Shown one piece after another: positions 6,708 to 33,386 of a stretch of 33,688 bases of DNA (position 1 is the stretch's first letter; each line of letters begins with the position of its first letter). This DNA is from Lachnospiraceae bacterium (GTDB lineage: Bacteria > Bacillota > Clostridia > Lachnospirales > Lachnospiraceae). The stretch is taken from assembly GCA_017483735.1 (NCBI GenBank), contig JAFUVF010000015.1, positions 1 through 33,688 on the forward strand, read 5' to 3'. The position numbers were made by a program, and so were the translations under genes. The notes under the pieces are model-generated. The model was not told the DNA's origin. It saw only the letters and a program-made list of their open reading frames with translations, and did not search any database.

Positions 6708-7039
6708 AGGGAGTAATCACGATCCAGTTTGAGAGCATGGAAGAGCTTAAGGAGATATTAAGCCTTTCCAAAAAGACGGGCTGCACGGTAGCAGAGGGCA
6801 AAACAGCCTTGAATGCTCCGGAAATCACAAAAGAGGAGCAGATTATCACGGACAAGACCATCAAAAAGGCAAAACCCGTGGAAAAAAAGATAGACACAGG
6901 AAAAATCGGAGCCCTTTATAAGGCAGGATGGAACACTGCAGACATAGCAGGAGAAATGAGGCTTAGCTTGGAAACCGTAAGAGCCTGCTTAAGAGCACAG
7001 GGCTTTAAGCTAAAGCCGGGAAAGAGGGGGACAGAATGA
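6704..7039 (+). CDS. Small HTH-domain protein
   Basis: A 111-residue basic protein coupled by ATGA overlaps to both neighbours. The N-terminal part (MKGVITIQFESMEELKEILSL) looks like a beta strand plus helix. The C-terminal part GKIGALYKAGWNTADIAGEMRLSLETVRACLRAQG is a clear helix-turn-helix of the resolvase/sigma-4 type. It probably binds DNA. No specific family is recognised. Confidence 0.6.
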   Translation: MKGVITIQFESMEELKEILSLSKKTGCTVAEGKTALNAPEITKEEQIITDKTIKKAKPVEKKIDTGKIGALYKAGWNTADIAGEMRLSLETVRACLRAQGFKLKPGKRGTE

Positions 7040-7374
7040 CAAAGAAGATTAGAAGCATCATTCCGGGGGATTCAAAGTATAAATGCTTTTTCTGTAATCG
7101 ATATTTTAACGATTACTTTAAGGGCGAGGCACACCACATCTTCGGAGGAGCAAACCGCCCTCTCTCGGATGAGGACGGGCTGGTAATCCACTTGTGCTAT
7201 GAATGCCACAGAGGAGAGAAGGGCATCCACGGGAGAGACGGACTGCCGCTTAAGGTTAAAGCCCAGAGGATAGGACAACAGGAATGGGAAGATAACCGTA
7301 TGAAGCTCTTTGACCTCACAAGAGAGGAAGCAACAAAACAGTTCATTTTGCGGTACGGGAAATCATACCAGTAA
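7036..7374 (+). CDS. HNH-like zinc-binding protein (NinG/DUF968-like)
   Basis: A 112-residue protein with a treble-clef/HNH layout: CFFC (Cys pair near residues 14-17), a central AHHIFGGANRPLSDEDGL with the paired His, and LCYECHRGEKGIHG with the second Cys pair and further His residues. Such proteins in phage early regions are recombination-associated nucleases of the NinG/Rap or DUF968 kind (family knowledge). The second-half sequence RMKLFDLTREEATKQFILRYGKSY is a conserved-looking tail. Catalytic activity cannot be inferred with certainty. Confidence 0.6.
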   Translation: MTKKIRSIIPGDSKYKCFFCNRYFNDYFKGEAHHIFGGANRPLSDEDGLVIHLCYECHRGEKGIHGRDGLPLKVKAQRIGQQEWEDNRMKLFDLTREEATKQFILRYGKSYQ

Positions 7375-7383
7375 GGAGGTGCT

Positions 7384-7998
7384 ATGTTTTACAAAATATC
7401 GATATTAAAGAAAATGATGAAAGAAGCCTATAAGGGGATGGGGCTTCATGTAGGACAGACCGTAACAGGGTGGCTTGTAATACGTACAGGACATTGGGAA
7501 TTGTGCCAGGACTTTGAGACGGTTCCCAAAGAAGTAAAAGGAGCCATAATGGAGCTGACAGGAGAGATCCCCCTGAAAGGCACATTCTATAAAGCTGTGG
7601 ATAAGGAATGTAACCAGTATGAGTTAGAGGCCGATGTGCGTATGTTACCACTCAGATACCCTGAAATTGACAAAGGAGAGGAGGGAGAGATAACAAGAAT
7701 CCTTATGGTGGGTGTATTCGACATATATGCGGTGGCAACGGTATATGATAAAGGAGAAGGTTACACAGTTTTACTTAAGCAAAATCAGGCGCAGCTTGTA
7801 ACCCCGGAAGGTATTGAAGTTGAAGCAGGAGAGACACCAATATATGGTCCATATATAGGAGGCAGGAGGGAGATAATCTGGCATAACAGTGATACATGGT
7901 ATTGTACCGCCCCTGTAATACCCGAGAAAGACAGGACAGATACTTTAAAACTATATAACGATATTGCAAAGATGTGCGGAAATACTGCACTTAAATAA
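7384..7998 (+). CDS. Hypothetical phage protein
   Basis: A 204-residue soluble protein with a strong TAAGGAGG site. I do not recognise a family. The first half (VGQTVTGWLVIRTGHWELCQDFETVP) and the second half (GGRREIIWHNSDTWYCTAPVIPEKDRTDTLKLYNDIAKMCGN) both look alpha/beta. No signal peptide, membrane segment or catalytic motif is evident. It is the last gene before the leader of the variable protein at 8092. Confidence 0.5.
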   Translation: MFYKISILKKMMKEAYKGMGLHVGQTVTGWLVIRTGHWELCQDFETVPKEVKGAIMELTGEIPLKGTFYKAVDKECNQYELEADVRMLPLRYPEIDKGEEGEITRILMVGVFDIYAVATVYDKGEGYTVLLKQNQAQLVTPEGIEVEAGETPIYGPYIGGRREIIWHNSDTWYCTAPVIPEKDRTDTLKLYNDIAKMCGNTALK

Positions 7999-8004
7999 AC
8001 CTCT

Positions 8005-8020
8005 AAACGCTTCGGCGTTT
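8005..8020. repeat. UUCG-loop hairpin in the leader of the variable protein
   Basis: AAACGC, loop TTCG, GCGTTT: a 6-bp stem with the very stable UUCG tetraloop. No T-run follows, so it is more likely an mRNA-stabilising or end-forming structure than a true terminator. Confidence 0.5.
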
Positions 8021-8047
8021 GTCATATCGCAAAACCATGTCAGTACA

Positions 8048-8075
8048 GGGGACGCTCCCGAGACGGAACGTCCCC
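8048..8075. repeat. 7-bp inverted repeat just before the variable protein RBS
   Basis: GGGGACG (8048-8054) pairs with CGTCCCC (8069-8075), with an inner TCC/GGA pairing. The arm ends a few bases before the GGAGG of the 8092 gene, so it could affect ribosome access or protect the 5' end of a processed transcript (inference). Confidence 0.4.
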
Positions 8076-8091
8076 GGGAAGGAGGAAAAGG

Positions 8092-8934
8092 ATGAACATT
8101 GATGAACAGGTAAGATTTTTAAAGCACATTGCGGAGGTACATGAAAAGGTGGCGCCATTGGAGAGCCTTAAGTATTTAAGCTGTGCAAATACTATATTGG
8201 AGCTGCAGGCAAAGCATGAGCACGTAAGAAAGGAAATTCTGTCTCTGATAGAAAAATACAGCGAATCAGAGCAGGAAACGCCCGATAAGGCAGCAGTCAA
8301 GGAATCAGACAAGGCAGCAGTAGAGGAGCCAAACGAGGCAGCAGGACAGCAGAACGACCTTACGATGGAAGTGAGTTTAAAAGTATCAAGGATGCAGGAT
8401 ATGGAGATTAGTCCTGCAGAAATCAAAAAAGATGATATCGTCACGCTTAAAGTAAGCGGAGAATCTGTAAATTGGATTGTAGTAGACGAGGAAAAGAACA
8501 GTATTCTATTATTGGCCAATGAATTGATAAATGATGGTATGGAGATGTATAAAGAATACGAACTTAATAAAAATCTGACTTATGATAATTCAGACATCCG
8601 CAAATTTTTAAAAGAGTGGATACAGGGCATGGATGATGCGATGTTGAATTTATTAGAACCCGTATATAAGGATGATCTAGCAACGCTTCCAACAGAGCGA
8701 CAGATGATAGGGAAAAATATATACGGAGAAGCAGAGAACGACACCCCCTTTGATCCCAAACACAGGATAGTGACAGACAAGGATGGATACGGCCAATGGT
8801 ACTGGATGCGAACGAAGGTAGAAGATAGCCCCGCTGATTTCGCCCATGTGATCGGCGACGGCGATGCGGACTACGACGACGCATCCGATGCCAACTTCGG
8901 CGTGCGCCCGCTAATCCGTATGCGAAAGCAGTAA
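8092..8934 (+). CDS. DUF6273 / C-type-lectin-like variable protein, second DGR target
   Basis: A 280-residue protein without a signal peptide. Residues 1-60 are helical (likely coiled coil). Residues 62-86 are an acidic linker of three eight-residue repeats, PDKAAVKE, SDKAAVEE and PNEAAGQQ. From about 110 it resembles DUF6273: VNWIVVDEEKNSILLLANELI, NSDIRKFLKEWI, WYWMRT and a terminal FGVRP. This is the lectin-like fold used by DGR targets. Residues 246-273 are VR2, whose 13 differences from the template are all at template adenines; seven Asn codons have become Asp. It lies in the early region between unrelated genes, 22.8 kb from the RT, so its role is open: a second receptor binder, a decoration, or an intracellular recognition protein. 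Confidence 0.85.
   Translation: MNIDEQVRFLKHIAEVHEKVAPLESLKYLSCANTILELQAKHEHVRKEILSLIEKYSESEQETPDKAAVKESDKAAVEEPNEAAGQQNDLTMEVSLKVSRMQDMEISPAEIKKDDIVTLKVSGESVNWIVVDEEKNSILLLANELINDGMEMYKEYELNKNLTYDNSDIRKFLKEWIQGMDDAMLNLLEPVYKDDLATLPTERQMIGKNIYGEAENDTPFDPKHRIVTDKDGYGQWYWMRTKVEDSPADFAHVIGDGDADYDDASDANFGVRPLIRMRKQ
8827..8910 (+). repeat. DGR variable repeat VR2
   Basis: This 84-nt stretch aligns without gaps to the template at 31693-31776. There are 13 substitutions, all where the template has A, and the other 57 template positions are unchanged. The last 14 nt (TCGGCGTGCGCCCG) are identical in VR1, VR2 and TR and are the likely initiation-of-homing (IMH) end. In frame it encodes the last variable residues of the protein at 8092. 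Confidence 0.95.
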
Positions 8935-8942
8935 TCTACAAT

Positions 8943-8963
8943 CCCCGCCCCGTGTGGGCGGGG
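8943..8963. repeat. Post-VR2 hairpin with CGTGT loop
   Basis: CCCCGCCC, loop CGTGT, GGGCGGGG: an 8-bp perfect stem (nine with the flanking T-A pair) starting 32 nt after the end of VR2. The loop is identical to that of the hairpin after VR1, although the stems differ. In the BPP-1 DGR a hairpin/cruciform after the IMH is needed for efficient homing (established). No T-run follows, so a terminator is unlikely. Confidence 0.85.
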
Positions 8964-8979
8964 AAATCAGGAGGATAAA

Positions 8980-9489
8980 ATGAAAAAGGGAAAGACTTTG
9001 ATGGATTATGACGAGAAACTTTCAGAGGATGCAGAACTCTTAAGCCGATACCTTTATCAATATAAAGATTGTATCGGCAAAAAGCACGCTTTAGAGCATC
9101 GTATGGAGCAGATTAAATACGAACTGAAACACCCTGTAAGTGCTATAAGATATGACAAGGATAAAGCAAAGCCATCAGAACCAAATGAGGGCTCTGTGGC
9201 TATAGTATATCGTTTGGATGAAATCCATATACGCATAAACCAGCAGATAGGCAAAGCTGAAAAAATTTTAGTTGAAATTATGAATATAATTGACTTTCTA
9301 CCAGAGAATTCTTTTGAAAGAACCATTATCGAAAATAAATATATAGACAGGATGAATTGGGAAAAGATATGTAACGAGAATCATTCAAGCAAATCCAGAA
9401 CGTCAAGATATTGGAAAAAGGGACTATATAAATTACTGGAATACGAAAAAGTAAGAAAAACACTGGATGAGTATAAAAAGAGTATGTAG
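8980..9489 (+). CDS. ArpU/DUF1492-like late transcription regulator
   Basis: A 169-residue mostly helical protein behind AGGAGG. The central MEQIKYELKHPVSAIRYDKDKAKPSE..GSVAIVYRLDEIHIRINQQI matches the spacing of ArpU/LtrC-like phage proteins. The C-terminal part ENSFERTIIENKYIDRMNWEKICNENHSSKSRTSRYWKKGLYKL is a sigma-region-4-like HTH. In Firmicutes phages such proteins sit at the end of the early region and switch on late genes (family knowledge), which matches its place before the terminase genes. The likely target is the leader at 10230-10338. Confidence 0.75.
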   Translation: MKKGKTLMDYDEKLSEDAELLSRYLYQYKDCIGKKHALEHRMEQIKYELKHPVSAIRYDKDKAKPSEPNEGSVAIVYRLDEIHIRINQQIGKAEKILVEIMNIIDFLPENSFERTIIENKYIDRMNWEKICNENHSSKSRTSRYWKKGLYKLLEYEKVRKTLDEYKKSM

Positions 9490-9529
9490 AAGGGTTGACA
9501 TACTGTTAATAGTATGATATTATAATATC
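9481..9529 (+). promoter_or_regulatory. Operator-rich sigma-A promoter for the micro-membrane genes
   Basis: TTGACA (9495-9500) and TATTAT (9518-9523) are 17 nt apart, a near-consensus promoter. The spacer is occupied by the inverted repeat CATACT..AGTATG (9499-9504 and 9511-9516), with a further AGTATG upstream at 9481-9486. The -10 region is embedded in the perfect palindrome GATATTATAATATC (9516-9529). At least one repressor or activator probably binds here; the downstream RHH protein and the upstream ArpU-like protein are candidates. Confidence 0.75.
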
Positions 9530-9547
9530 AGAAAGGAGGTAAACAGG

Positions 9548-9661
9548 ATGAGAAAACTTACTGAAGAAACAAAAAAGTCCATCAAAGAAAGCTTAACCGG
9601 CGCTTTGATAGACTTGATTGTTGGCTTGATTCTTCTCTTCGTCTCGAAGCTTCTTGAATAG
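9548..9661 (+). CDS. Micro-membrane protein (37 residues)
   Basis: Thirty-seven residues: a charged amphipathic start MRKLTEETKKSIKES followed by one hydrophobic helix from about LTGALIDLIV to LLFVSKLLE. It has a perfect AAAGGAGG ribosome-binding site and lies directly behind a strong promoter, which supports expression. The family is unknown. Phages encode such peptides as toxins, antiholins or exclusion factors, but none of these can be chosen from sequence. Confidence 0.6.
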   Translation: MRKLTEETKKSIKESLTGALIDLIVGLILLFVSKLLE

Positions 9662-10338: not shown

Positions 10339-10926
10339 ATGGCAGAGCAGAAAAGCGAGCTTAAAAAATATATCAGCAAGGAAACCGTAGCAACTCTGTT
10401 TAATCTGTCCAGCAGGCGGATCGAACAACTGACGAAAGACGGAATAATAGAAAGAACTCTTATTAAGCGGCGTGCGCAGTATGAAACTGCTCCGACTATA
10501 CAGAGATACATAACCTATTTGTCCGACAAAGCATACAACAGAGAGATTACGGGTATGGAGAAAACCCTAAAAGAGCAAAAACTCCGGGCTGAGATAGAAC
10601 TAAAGAAATCCCAGGGAGAGCTGCACAGGCTCCGCACTGAGATAGCCATAGGCAATTATATATCCGTGGATGAAATAAAAATGGACTACAGCAGATTCTT
10701 TGTTATATTTAAGAATTTTGCATTATCAATTCCCGGGAAAGTGGCCGGTAAGGTATCCGGCGCATTAGATCCGGTAGAAGTGCGGAGGATAGAGGGAGAG
10801 CTTCAGAACGATATCACAGCACTTCTCAATGGTTTCGTATCCAGAGCAGTCACGGAAAAGCCGGAGCCAAAGGATACTGAAAAGCCAAAACGAAAGGGAA
10901 GACCGACAAAAAATGCCAAGAAATAA
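10339..10926 (+). CDS. terS: Terminase small subunit (Nu1-like)
   Basis: A 195-residue protein. The N-terminal KYISKETVATLFNLSSRRIEQLTKDGII is the winged-HTH that recognises packaging DNA in the Nu1 family. A long helix (NREITGMEKTLKEQKLRAEIELKKSQGELHRLRTEIA) serves oligomerisation, and the C-terminus ends in a basic tail (PKRKGRPTKNAKK) that would contact DNA or the large subunit. It binds the pac/cos region and recruits the large terminase. It overlaps the large subunit gene by 14 nt and opens the late operon. Confidence 0.85.
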   Translation: MAEQKSELKKYISKETVATLFNLSSRRIEQLTKDGIIERTLIKRRAQYETAPTIQRYITYLSDKAYNREITGMEKTLKEQKLRAEIELKKSQGELHRLRTEIAIGNYISVDEIKMDYSRFFVIFKNFALSIPGKVAGKVSGALDPVEVRRIEGELQNDITALLNGFVSRAVTEKPEPKDTEKPKRKGRPTKNAKK

Positions 10927-29637: not shown

Positions 29638-31107
29638 ATGGGAAGCTTCAAAGCAGCAGTAATGACGGAGAGAGGCGCACAGCTCTTAAGGGATGCACTT
29701 GCAGGCACCGCAAAGATTGAGTTCACGGCAATGTTTGCAGGAGATGGAGAATATACGGAGGCGGAAGCCATACCATCTGCACTCATGGAGAGGACAGCCC
29801 TTAAACAGCAGAGACAGAGCGTGCTTTTATCAAGCATAGAGGCGGTACCGGGAACCAATGCGGTAAAGCTGACAGGAGCATTGGACAATACAAGCCTTTC
29901 AGGCGGATATTACGTGAGGGAGATAGGCATATATGCAAAGGATACGCTGCACCCTGACCTTGCAGATGTACTCTATTCAATAGTGTTGGCAGAGATTCCT
30001 GATTATATGCCGCCATATAACCATTTATCCCCCACGATAATCATGGAAGAGTATTTTGTGACTGTTGATAATACGGAGAATGTGACTATCACAGTAGGAA
30101 GCAGTGCATATGTCACTACGGAGGCGTTTGAACAGTTCAAGGAAGATGTGGAAGAAGAGTTTTCAAATATGGAGCATGTGTCAGATGATATCGCCGACAG
30201 TGAAGCCACATCTACAGCTTCTAAAGGATATAGCGAAGGAGAGTATCTTTTATTCAACGATAATCTCTACGAGGCGACAGATGACATTTCATCCGGAGAT
30301 ACTATCGAGGAGGGCGTGAATGTTGAGCGAACCCAAATAGGTAAAGTCCTGACTATCCTCAATAAAAAAAGCAAATGGGAGTATTACAACGGACTTAGAT
30401 ACTACAATCTGGGAACGGAGTTTTCTGAAGAACAGGCTCAAATGCTTGCGGCAGGAGATTTCTCGGAGCTTTGGAATGGTGACTTCTGGGAAAACGGTGG
30501 CGATACAATCCGTATAATCGATAATATGGAGCCATTTTATCAGTATGAAAAATGGACGAATCCGACAGATTTCAAACATCATGTGGTTGTGATGAATGAC
30601 AACTGCATACTTAAAGCAGATAGCTCCACCACAAGGTATATGAAGGATACTAACGATACTACGGGAGCATATGCAGGGACCAAATATCGTACAACCTATA
30701 AACAGCAGTGTGATAACTACTATAAGGCTTTCTTTGGAGCTGCCCACTTGGGAATCCATAAGGAACTTATTTCGGATGCCGTGGCAAATGGTAAGGCCTC
30801 ACATTGGATCTGGGATGACGCATCAACGGAGATTCCTTCGGAAACAAATATGATAGGACATCCATCATTTGGAGAGTCTACATATAATAACGGATTTAAT
30901 GAAGGAACTAATTTCAGACAGTTCAAATTATTTCAGTTAGACCCTAGATTTATAATGCCGAACATTGAAAAGGTATTGGAATATTTTTGGGAGAGAGATG
31001 TAGTAAGCGCCGCTTATTTCGCCTATGTGGACGGCTACGGCTTTGCGGCCTACAACGCCGCATCCTATACCTACATCGGCGTGCGCCCGTATTCCGTAAT
31101 CATCTAA
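29638..31107 (+). CDS. Tail fibre / receptor-binding protein, first DGR target
   Basis: A 489-residue protein behind AAGGAGG. Residues 1-150 are the P2 gpH-like collar-fibre N-terminus (MGSFKAAVMTERGAQLLRDALAGTAKIEFTAM, GGYYVREIGIYAKD, PPYNHLSPTIIMEEYFVTVDNTENVTI) that binds the baseplate. A short coiled part (EAFEQFKEDVEEEFSNMEH) follows, then a middle domain with many Trp and Tyr and a lectin-like C-terminus ending IGVRP. Residues 457-484 are VR1, 14 changes from the template, all at adenines, with six Asn codons turned to Tyr or Phe. This should be the receptor-binding tip, diversified to track host-surface change (as Mtd in BPP-1). Confidence 0.9.
   Translation: MGSFKAAVMTERGAQLLRDALAGTAKIEFTAMFAGDGEYTEAEAIPSALMERTALKQQRQSVLLSSIEAVPGTNAVKLTGALDNTSLSGGYYVREIGIYAKDTLHPDLADVLYSIVLAEIPDYMPPYNHLSPTIIMEEYFVTVDNTENVTITVGSSAYVTTEAFEQFKEDVEEEFSNMEHVSDDIADSEATSTASKGYSEGEYLLFNDNLYEATDDISSGDTIEEGVNVERTQIGKVLTILNKKSKWEYYNGLRYYNLGTEFSEEQAQMLAAGDFSELWNGDFWENGGDTIRIIDNMEPFYQYEKWTNPTDFKHHVVVMNDNCILKADSSTTRYMKDTNDTTGAYAGTKYRTTYKQQCDNYYKAFFGAAHLGIHKELISDAVANGKASHWIWDDASTEIPSETNMIGHPSFGESTYNNGFNEGTNFRQFKLFQLDPRFIMPNIEKVLEYFWERDVVSAAYFAYVDGYGFAAYNAASYTYIGVRPYSVII
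31006..31089 (+). repeat. DGR variable repeat VR1
   Basis: Gapless 84-nt match to the template at 31693-31776 with 14 substitutions, all at template adenines (A to T, G or C); non-A positions are identical. The 14-nt 3' end TCGGCGTGCGCCCG is shared with VR2 and TR. It ends 18 nt before the fibre stop codon. Confidence 0.97.
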
Positions 31108-31143
31108 TCCGAAATCCCACGGCCGTGTGCCGTGGTTTCGGAT
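31107..31143. repeat. Post-VR1 hairpin with CGTGT loop
   Basis: Lower stem ATCCGAAA / TTTCGGAT (8 bp), a two-base TC bulge, upper stem CCACGGC / GCCGTGG (7 bp), loop CGTGT. It starts at the fibre stop codon, 18 nt after VR1. It shares only the loop sequence with the VR2 hairpin, which suggests recognition of the loop or cruciform. No T-run, so not a terminator. Confidence 0.85.
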
Positions 31144-31173: not shown

Positions 31174-31896
31174 ATGGCAAGAAAGAAAAATAAAAAGTGG
31201 TGCGACACCAAATATGAGACGAAAACAACAAAATTCGGCGTGGAGGAGATGGCAAAAGCCATCTACGACACGCTCGAAGAGTATATCTTAAATGATGTCC
31301 GCAAAGACATCATCGCAAAGAAGATTCCAGAGGAAGGTAACGAAGAAGTTGGAGAGCTCCAAAGAGATTATCTGTTGCACAGATTTGAGAAAATGACTGA
31401 TATGGCGGAGCGGATAGAGCTGTATGTAAGGGATGCCAATTCCATATATGCGCTGTATGCGTGTGATTATGAGTACAGACGCAAAGTTTGGCTTGCCGCC
31501 AGAGGATGTTGTTTCAGGTTAAGATGTATGCTTGACCATATGACTGAACTAGTCGTATCCGGCACGAATATCCAGAAGTATGTGGATATAAGCGCCGATG
31601 TAGATAATCTGTCCGAGCGCATAAAAGGAGTCATAATATCAGACGACAGGCGTCGGAAAGAAAAATGCAAGGATTACGAGGGCAGTTCTTGTAACACCGC
31701 TAATTTCGCCAATGTGAACGGCAACGGCAATGCGAACTACAACAACGCATCCAATACCAACATCGGCGTGCGCCCGATTTCCAAGCAGAACGGACACAAA
31801 GAGTCGTCCGAAGAAAATGTTACGGAAAGGAAGGACTGTCCGTCCCAAAGGGACGATGTGACCGTGGATGCACCGAGTTACGACGAGGGGCTATAA
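31174..31896 (+). CDS. avd: DGR accessory variability determinant (Avd) with embedded TR
   Basis: A 240-residue protein. Residues 20-160 form four helices (FGVEEMAKAIYDTLEEYILNDVRKDI, LQRDYLLHRFEKMTDMAERIELYVRDANSIY, CDYEYRRKVWLAARGCCFRLRCMLDHMTELVV, IQKYVDISADVDNLSERIKGVI), the Avd/23S-intervening-sequence bundle that binds the RT and template RNA as a pentamer (known for BPP-1). Residues 174-201 are the translated template itself, an Asn-rich run (NTANFANVNGNGNANYNN), and about 40 polar residues follow. This tail is about 75 residues longer than a usual Avd, so the template lies in frame inside the gene. Whether the tail is needed is unknown. Confidence 0.85.
   Translation: MARKKNKKWCDTKYETKTTKFGVEEMAKAIYDTLEEYILNDVRKDIIAKKIPEEGNEEVGELQRDYLLHRFEKMTDMAERIELYVRDANSIYALYACDYEYRRKVWLAARGCCFRLRCMLDHMTELVVSGTNIQKYVDISADVDNLSERIKGVIISDDRRRKEKCKDYEGSSCNTANFANVNGNGNANYNNASNTNIGVRPISKQNGHKESSEENVTERKDCPSQRDDVTVDAPSYDEGL
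31693..31776 (+). repeat. DGR template repeat TR
   Basis: This 84-nt repeat has 27 adenines, nearly all in eleven AAC/AAT codons that line up with the variable codons of both targets. It is read in the same frame as the VRs. Because every adenine-bearing codon ends in C or T, or is GCA, no adenine substitution can create a stop codon. It is transcribed with avd and the RT, and the RNA would serve as the mutagenic cDNA template. Confidence 0.96.
31841..31855. repeat. Small hairpin in the TR-RT spacer
   Basis: CGTCCC, loop AAA, GGGACG, 64 nt after the end of TR. In BPP-1 the spacer RNA downstream of TR is required for RT priming and template choice (established); this hairpin may be part of such a structure (inference). 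Confidence 0.45.
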
Positions 31897-31905
31897 ACCA
31901 CGAAA

Positions 31906-33072
31906 ATGGGTATGGTAGAAGAAATAACCTGTAATGCCAACAATATGTACTTTGCGGGCAAAAAGACTATAAAAAGTTCCTATAAGAAAGAAAGTACCCA
32001 GCGTTTCAAAAGAAATCTTTTATGTGAAATCAAGCGAGCACAGGAAGAACTGCACGACAGAAGTTGGAAAATTACCTATACCCCGCCTTTTATCATAAAA
32101 GAAAGAGGGCACACAAGAAAGATACAGGGCAATATTCCATATGACAGGATGATAATACATAGCTATATGGATAATGTTCTTTGGAAACAGTTAGAGAGAT
32201 ACATCATATATGACAATTACGCATCACAGACGGACAAGGGCACAGGGAAAGCGAGGGAACGCTTCAAGGAGTTCCTGCACAGCGCTTATAGAGAATACGG
32301 AAACAATAAGTTTTATGTGGAACTATTGGATTTTAAGAAGTTTTATGACAATGTACAACATCAGAAACTGTATGATGAGATAATGCGCAAAGTACCATAT
32401 GATCCGTTTCACGAATATATGATATGGACGATACTCGACAGTATGAAGGTGGATGTATCTTATATGACCGACCTGGAATATGAAGATTGCCTTGATGACA
32501 TATATGTTGCACTCGACCATATATATGACGACCCGAGCTGTTTGATGGGCGAAAAGTATATGTTAAAGGGCTTAAATATTGGAAATCAAGGTTCACAGGT
32601 GTTCAGCATATTCTATCCGACACGAGTAGACAACTATTGCAAAAATGTCCGTGGAGTCAAGCGATACGGAAGATTTATGGACGATATTTCGATGATACAT
32701 AACAGCAAGGACTTTTTACTGAGCGTATCCGAAGGGATGATGCCGATATGTGAAGATATGGGACTACATATCAATACAAAGAAAACTAAAATATACAGAG
32801 CAGACGGACACATTACATACCTTGGACGAATATATCATATGACAGCAAGCGGGCATATTATCGAGAGGCTTAAACCGGACACAATACACAGAGAGATAGT
32901 AAAAATAAAGAAATTCAAGGAGATGTATGATATGGGTATCAAGACCTATGAGAGCATAGAGGAGCAGGTGCAGACCTGGATGGGATGTTATGGTAAGCTA
33001 TTGAATTTTTCACAGGATGAAAAGATAAGAACACTCTACAAAGAACTGTATGGATTAACAATAAAAATATAA
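31906..33072 (+). CDS. DGR reverse transcriptase
   Basis: A 388-residue RT with the expected blocks: an N-terminal RT0/1 region (SYKKESTQRFKRNLLCEIKRAQEELHDRSW), motif A LDFKKFYDN with catalytic Asp142, the DGR-type motif IGNQGSQ (225-231), the catalytic box FMDD (257-260), GLHINTKKTKI and TYLGRIYH. The IGxxxSQ pattern separates DGR RTs from retron and group II enzymes (family knowledge). The catalytic box has Phe in place of the usual Tyr of YxDD. It copies the TR RNA with adenine-specific errors, and the cDNA replaces the VRs. The start at 31906 has no clear ribosome-binding site and lies 9 nt after the avd stop. Confidence 0.95.
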   Translation: MGMVEEITCNANNMYFAGKKTIKSSYKKESTQRFKRNLLCEIKRAQEELHDRSWKITYTPPFIIKERGHTRKIQGNIPYDRMIIHSYMDNVLWKQLERYIIYDNYASQTDKGTGKARERFKEFLHSAYREYGNNKFYVELLDFKKFYDNVQHQKLYDEIMRKVPYDPFHEYMIWTILDSMKVDVSYMTDLEYEDCLDDIYVALDHIYDDPSCLMGEKYMLKGLNIGNQGSQVFSIFYPTRVDNYCKNVRGVKRYGRFMDDISMIHNSKDFLLSVSEGMMPICEDMGLHINTKKTKIYRADGHITYLGRIYHMTASGHIIERLKPDTIHREIVKIKKFKEMYDMGIKTYESIEEQVQTWMGCYGKLLNFSQDEKIRTLYKELYGLTIKI

Positions 33073-33083
33073 GGAGGTATATT

Positions 33084-33386
33084 ATGACACTAGTATTATC
33101 AGACGGGACACGGATTGAAGGCATTACCATGAATGGCAACAATTATGTATCCCAGGAAGAGGTAAAGGAGAGTGATCTTGCCGGAAAGCTCTCCCATGTA
33201 TCAGTAGAAGAGAATGGTGCAGTAACGCAGGAATTGGAAAATGCTGCACTGGTTCAAATCCTGCATTACAACGATGGCTGGTACATAGCTTTAAGAGAGA
33301 TGACCGAGACGGAAGTAATGCTCGCAAAGTTAAGAGCGGATACTGATTACATCGCAGCAATGTCCGATGTGGATTTGGAGGGTTAA
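33084..33386 (+). CDS. Small tail-region protein, function unknown
   Basis: A 100-residue acidic protein with a strong TAAGGAGG. MTLVLSDGTRIEGITMNGNNYVSQEEVKESDLAGKLSHVSVEENGAVTQELENAALVQILHYNDGWYIALREMTETEVMLAKLRADTDYIA looks like a small beta domain plus a C-terminal helix, a pattern common in genes between fibres and lysis genes of clostridial phages. Specific role not known. Confidence 0.6.
   Translation: MTLVLSDGTRIEGITMNGNNYVSQEEVKESDLAGKLSHVSVEENGAVTQELENAALVQILHYNDGWYIALREMTETEVMLAKLRADTDYIAAMSDVDLEG

Follow-up and report, generated by a model that had tools for sequence, protein, structure and literature searches.

A DGR with one template and two targets, a tail fibre gene and a predicted early-module gene, in a Lachnospiraceae bacterium

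DGRs of phages are usually interpreted as a means of switching receptors. The closest precedent for the locus described here is a set of distal second variable repeats (VRs) in four gut prophage species, which lie near counter-defence genes such as a methyltransferase and for which a role in conflict has already been suggested (PMC12629997, Nature 2025); a DGR with a distal second VR is thus of a kind already known. Multi-VR DGRs make up 28.6% of 948 non-redundant DGRs (PMC6642488), and phages with two targets are already in print. In the Tentaclin phages nd4 and nd12, one template repeat (TR) serves two targets of differing architecture, both with C-type lectin domains and both in the DGR cassette, target 1 having its lectin domain at the N-terminus and Ig domains after it (PMC10743442). 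The Faecalibacterium prophages Lelie and CP11 have two VRs, with DUF6273 in both targets; the function is called unclear there, and the passages concerned say nothing about which gene module the small target belongs to (PMC11792537). The largest metagenome survey would, by its own approach, miss remote targets (PMC8144416). The Bordetella phage BPP-1 DGR has the order avd-TR-RT, a tail gene with adenine-directed changes at its 3' end and a hairpin after the VR (PMC3240598; PMC12875486, the latter also the source of the terms IMH and IMH*). This hairpin is needed for efficient homing in a manner that depends on loop sequence, and the compared phage DGRs share a 4-nt GRNA loop (PMC3240598).

The locus analysed here occupies a window of 33,688 nt (the whole stretch of DNA that was analysed), which is the entire contig 71 of a 104-contig host assembly. 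Like the prophages of PMC12629997, it has a single template, one target on the tail side and a second VR at a distance, 22.8 kb upstream of the TR; the VR1 gene is 0.6 kb from the TR. Whereas the passages of that paper on the distal VR name neither a protein family nor a hairpin, here the distal target is traced as a DUF6273 family through host genomes, viral contigs and named phages, together with a hairpin and population variation. The window resembles nd4 and nd12 in having one TR and two targets of differing architecture, but its two targets do not share one cassette, and it resembles Lelie and CP11 in having two VRs and a target with DUF6273, here target 2; a Pfam search of target 1 found no DUF6273 match. 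It shares with BPP-1 the order of elements, the adenine-directed changes at a tail-gene 3' end and the hairpin after the VR; in the descriptions of BPP-1 there is one target, whereas the window has two, 22 kb apart. The present analysis adds the pentaloop and an early protein family that recurs. In the parts of the open-licence literature covered, we found neither the early protein family as such nor the CNYGT loop described, nor any matching of tail and early loops.

Table 1. Coordinates of the elements of the two-target DGR and of its target genes in the window.
Feature	Position	Strand	Description
Target 2, DUF6273 protein	8092..8934	+	280 aa; acidic; no hydrophobic segment found
Variable repeat 2 (VR2)	8827..8910	+	3' end of early-module gene (predicted module); 13 A-only differences
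Hairpin after VR2	8942..8964	+	9-bp stem; loop CGTGT 8951-8955
Regulator-like gene, ArpU-like	8980..9489	+	phrog_36; weak DUF1492; immediately follows target 2
Target 1, tail-collar fibre protein	29638..31107	+	489 aa; PF12571 N-terminal domain; phrog_7037 tail fiber
Variable repeat 1 (VR1)	31006..31089	+	3' end of tail-collar fibre gene; 14 A-only differences
Hairpin after VR1	31107..31143	+	inner 7-bp stem 31117-31135; loop CGTGT 31124-31128
Avd-like ORF	31174..31896	+	240 aa; in frame through TR plus 39 codons
Template repeat (TR)	31693..31776	+	84 nt, 27 A
Reverse transcriptase (RT)	31906..33072	+	388 aa; RVT_1; phrog_1423; IGNQGSQ and FMDD motifs

The original prediction placed the TR in gapless alignment with both VRs, and a recomputed alignment agrees with it; its counts of differences for each VR, 27 of 27 at template adenines, and of 57 non-adenine positions identical in TR, VR1 and VR2 were reproduced exactly. 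If the differences were placed at random, the chance that all of them would fall on adenines is 6e-9 for VR1 and 3e-8 for VR2, and one or both VRs differ from the template at 18 of its 27 adenines. When both strands of the window were scanned, with template adenines ignored and up to 22 mismatches allowed elsewhere, only TR, VR1 and VR2 were returned, each with 0 mismatches, and a DNA search of the host assembly (3.2 Mb, 104 contigs) found no copies beyond these three. The adenine-only differences, the RT, the Avd-like ORF and the hairpins support the reading of this pattern as a signature of DGR mutagenic retrohoming, and the window almost certainly holds a two-target DGR in which one template underlies the adenine-only rewriting of VR1 and VR2. 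The further claim that both targets have been actively diversified held in part. Past diversification is evident, and a homologue of the VR2 protein described below adds strain variation; because the window is a single snapshot, it speaks by itself for past diversification, and "actively" was too strong a word.

The [ILV]GxxxSQ motif marks DGR RTs. The RT of the window carries such a motif, matches RVT_1 at 45.9 bits (cut-off 29.6) and adjoins the TR, as a DGR-type RT does; an SQ motif is discussed in PMC3521204. A search of 61 genomes for the RT returned the window and one weaker match, a pattern scan with the window RT over viral contigs and genome contigs returned no match, an Rfam search gave none, and a tRNA search found no tRNA. 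The Avd-like ORF aligns with the Avd-position ORFs of relatives at 11-32% identity. As a Pfam search of this ORF gave no match, its assignment is one by similarity and position. The TR lies within the ORF in the frame used by the VRs, a point absent from the original prediction, and three database proteins (P0002-P0004) have a similar in-frame Avd-TR junction. We considered this fusion as the main story and set it aside as a side observation, because the Avd-position ORF ends ahead of the TR at 15 of 15 relative loci and also in L217, the contig with the nearest RT relative found (50% identity; a single VR in 37.8 kb, loop CATGT). Separately, a protein of about 100 aa encoded at 33084-33386 of the window begins with the pattern (L/S)DGT...NGNN(F/Y)(I/V)S; similar ORFs occur near the DGR in L025-L036, and the protein recurs next to these DGRs, on either side of the RT.

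The two DGR targets sit in different gene modules, which the original prediction did not mention. Upstream of target 2 lie genes for a replication initiator, an RNase H and a PcfJ protein, and the terminase small subunit gene begins at 10339, after the regulator-like gene. Based on this gene content, target 2 belongs to a predicted early module, and we infer that the VR2 gene is expressed early. A strong promoter-like site at 9495-9523 (11/12, TG before the second hexamer) stands between the regulator-like gene and the terminase genes; it may be due to chance, since 8 such sites were found and 6.1 were expected. In relatives, DNA-metabolism families and unknown families predominate among the Pfam matches next to early genes (neighbour scans covered 87 of 130 listed neighbour ORFs, and the PHROG families listed for them are 25 of 94). 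A methyltransferase lies near the early gene in relatives and in Roseburia phage Shimadzu; none was found among the window's scanned ORFs neighbouring VR2. As an observation of its own, a DUF6353-like gene starts at most 75 nt from the end of the early gene in 18 of 38 loci (for example L086 6520-7284 and L048 19224-19988). The L048 copy has two hydrophobic segments and could be a membrane partner; the gene is absent from the window.

Target 2 matches part of the DUF6273 domain (PF19789; residues 136-188, 27.2 bits, gathering cut-off 23.5). It has 34 K+R and 58 D+E residues, and a hydropathy scan detected no hydrophobic segment. The structure model of target 2 is poor in the VR (residues 243-268 at pLDDT <50), and a Foldseek search with it gave 9qa6 as the best match (E 0.006), followed by noise; a relative of the VR2 protein yields a C-type-lectin-like structure model. 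A tblastn search of the VR2 protein against phages gave no match, and a pattern scan of viral contigs with the same protein gave 6 pattern matches, none of them a relative.

A GC-rich hairpin stands 3' of each VR, at a distance of 17-28 nt for VR1 and 31 nt for VR2, and among the perfect hairpins listed for the window only these two have a CGTGT loop; the original prediction makes no mention of them. Folded as DNA, they score better than shuffled sequences (z -6.0 and -3.7). GC-rich stem-loops at gene ends are commonly terminators, and these two could be ordinary transcription terminators that share a loop by chance or ancestry. We consider that very improbable: neither hairpin is directly followed by a T run in the sequence, and a search of 7000-9600 around VR2 found no terminator-like site. 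In a survey of 1,408 plus-strand ORF ends (ORFs of at least 80 aa in 77 early-gene loci and the window), a pentaloop hairpin stood 3' of 68 of the 78 ORFs with a VR-like C-terminus and after 0 of the 1,330 other ends, the VR-like C-terminal signature being custom-written and the loci chosen by early-gene similarity. The loops of the tail and early genes within one phage are, moreover, the same or of the same class while the stems differ, which again speaks against terminators. CGTGT occurs twice in the window, CCTGT twice in L029/L054 and GAAA at both genes of Dulem virus 34. On the lack of a T run, the control ends and the terminator scan, the terminator reading was rejected.

The 5-nt CGTGT loop differs from the 4-nt GRNA consensus of the BPP-1 hairpin, so the window's hairpins are not of the BPP-1 type (PMC3240598). 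C-N-Y-G-T is the commonest loop in relatives, exact at 34 of 53 distinct VR ends (11/19 tail, 23/34 early); the other 19 have GAAA, CTTGC, CCCGC, CTATGT, 7-nt loops or imperfect stems, or no hairpin was found there. Tail and early loops are not always identical: they are CTCGT and CTTGT in L026, L032 and L033, CTTGC and CCCGC in Acutalibacter phage Fontainebleau, and CTCGT and the 6-nt CTATGT in Roseburia phage Shimadzu. We propose that the pentaloop hairpin serves as an address by which a single template can find a gene tens of kb away. In L027, L032, L033, L035 and L039, the last template adenine near the 3' end (GATTT) is a C in the VRs (GCTTT), a fixed rather than random difference, as expected for an IMH*/IMH pair.

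The layout recurs in host genomes. An RT match was found in 17 of 397 genomes of the host's family, the host itself included, and 15 of 18 relative regions (L025-L042) hold a convincing TR-VR pair, the exceptions being L034 and L041, with none, and L042, with a weak one. Seven of these 15 loci have a far VR of their own template, and L026 has two. At the other eight, no second VR was found in the stretch searched, which reached up to about 60 kb upstream and at some loci was ended by the contig end. The far VRs of the host loci lie in ORFs of 185-331 aa that can be aligned with the VR2 protein of the window, and they have 3 to 8 non-adenine differences, most of them at the 5' end, where the repeat has a later start. 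L031 and L035 each have one internal non-adenine difference, and in L029/L054 the match of the far VR is confined to the final 58 nt, preceded by 19 non-adenine differences. Some phages apparently have three targets, with a tail VR and two adjoining early genes (L026 with L047:1015 and L048:19077; G421, which is L086).

Named phages have the same layout. The far VR of Acutalibacter phage Fontainebleau (9800-9887) lies in the gene for WAK78934.1, after DNA polymerase I and one ORF before a helicase; that of Roseburia phage Shimadzu (33483-33593) lies in orf43, between a DNA methyltransferase and Erf; and that of Dulem virus 34 (36195-36304) follows a methyltransferase gene. Each of the three has 15 adenine-only differences. 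In Faecalibacterium phage Lelie, a VR at 40451-40551 in orf58, far from the RT, has 15 adenine differences and 1 non-adenine difference. On the DGR of Shimadzu, we found no paper beyond a meeting report.

Among IMG/VR contigs, 77 loci (70 + 7) encode a relative of the early protein. Records for 50 of the 77 loci were checked, and 26 of these 50 have an RT match. In 24 of the 26, the early gene matches the RT-adjoining template, 23 times with at most one non-adenine difference and once (L096) with 3; of the remaining two, L133 is ended by the contig end and L147 gave no match. The RT-carrying records include duplicates (L107/L108, L137/L138/L139 and L142/L143). In the records of L107 and L108 (G436 and G437), a stop codon interrupts the RT frame, so this DGR may be dead; the early VR still matches the template. 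The search was also run from the RT side, with the best 80 of 222 RT loci, of which 34 on contigs of at least 30 kb were tested. The early-protein profile matched somewhere in all 34, tail targets matching the profile too, and 17 of the 34 have a near-full-length early-type match, which in G450 is in two pieces. The seven of these 17 that were not among the earlier records, early-type by profile, all match their own template, with 0, 0, 0, 0, 0, 1 and 3 non-adenine differences.

Comparisons between close relatives bear on whether the early target is still being changed. For the VR2 protein of the window one close homologue was found, P0005, which differs at 15 of 280 residues; 13 of these lie in the 28-residue VR, and 12 of the 13 fall at codons with a template adenine (A251V does not). 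Four viral contigs (L106, L110, L116 and L118) have an early gene that is identical outside its last 105 nt and differs in that end at 11 to 20 positions per pair. The template used for these four was that of the relative L115, and they agree with it at every non-adenine position; all 22 of their 22 variable VR columns are adenines in that template. Only two pairs remain close across 8.4 kb, L110/L118 (16 differences) and L106/L116 (71), the other pairs diverging upstream. For L110 and L118, the 16 differences among 8,400 compared positions all fall in the VR and at template adenines, and L140 and L142 have 13 VR differences, all at adenines. Among 102 homologues of exactly 187 aa (from 120 listed of 1,279 found), the 13 VR codons with an adenine as first or second base have a mean entropy of 3.00 bits, compared with 0.36 for the remaining 15 VR codons and 0.61 for the part upstream. 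At the level of sequence, diversification of the early target in relatives is thus demonstrated.

VR2 could instead be a bystander, a decayed or occasional landing site in a template-like gene without a selected function. The window by itself offers a single copy, and the early genes of L119, L126 and L149 have stop codons or frame breaks, both of which fit such a bystander. Against it stand the recurrence in many phages, the dedicated hairpin, the variation between near-identical contigs, and dN/dS values of 0.06-0.17 outside the VR in 11 pairs (which share members and are not independent). By these values the early gene outside the VR is under purifying selection, and in each of the 11 pairs the final 105 nt have a dN above dS. 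On recurrence, dN/dS and population variation, we disfavour a bystander VR2 and hold it to be extremely improbable.

By analogy with BPP-1, we propose that the retrohoming chemistry carries over to this prophage DGR. RNA covering the TR would be copied by the RT with Avd, and errors would enter at adenines. The cDNA would then replace the 3' end of a gene that carries a TR-like stretch and a hairpin with a CGTGT loop, the hairpin being the address that would make a distant gene a target. In this way the phage would vary a binder of the cell surface, the tail fibre, and a second binder that would act inside the cell. Taken as a whole, this account, of a prophage DGR that rewrites a tail fibre gene and an early DUF6273 gene and so varies a surface binder and a putative intracellular one, is in our judgement quite probable.

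Where the second binder acts is the part of this account with the strongest competitor. C-type lectin domains of DGR targets usually bind surface ligands. The early-module protein could accordingly be a virion or released protein, such as a decoration protein or a free lectin, that binds cells, mucus or receptors, in which case both targets would serve adsorption. The VR region of the VR2 protein does show a weak match to the Hoc-like decoration family phrog_10993 (E 0.00099, residues 236-277), and one template for both VRs implies alike binding surfaces. The position of the gene argues otherwise, before the terminase and, in relatives and named phages, among replication-type genes. So does the finding that early proteins are mostly a bare domain, without an attachment domain, and that no structural Pfam family is among the 24 listed for the 87 neighbours, of which one is endolysin-like. 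We regard a virion or released protein as rather unlikely. The predicted role that we favour is that of a hypervariable binding protein which likely works inside the infected cell. The most likely such role would be in an arms race with a variable factor of the host or of a rival phage, a possibility that we rate just short of even. More tentatively, and as a generalization that may well prove too broad, phages of gut Bacillota might possess a lectin family that works inside the cell and resembles antibodies: for the most part C-type-lectin domains alone, encoded in the DNA-replication module, diversified from the tail-fibre template, tagged by the pentaloop, neutralising variable host-defence or rival-phage factors and often accompanied by a two-span membrane partner (DUF6353).

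A recurring target in the early module means that the mutator of the tail fibre diversifies a second protein as well, one whose site of action is probably intracellular. The hairpin offers a route to DGR targets on contigs that lack an RT, and with Fontainebleau, Shimadzu and Lelie there are named phages with the same layout, which makes the function testable. If the reading as an intracellular lectin is true, a single DGR would diversify entry and intracellular conflict at once.
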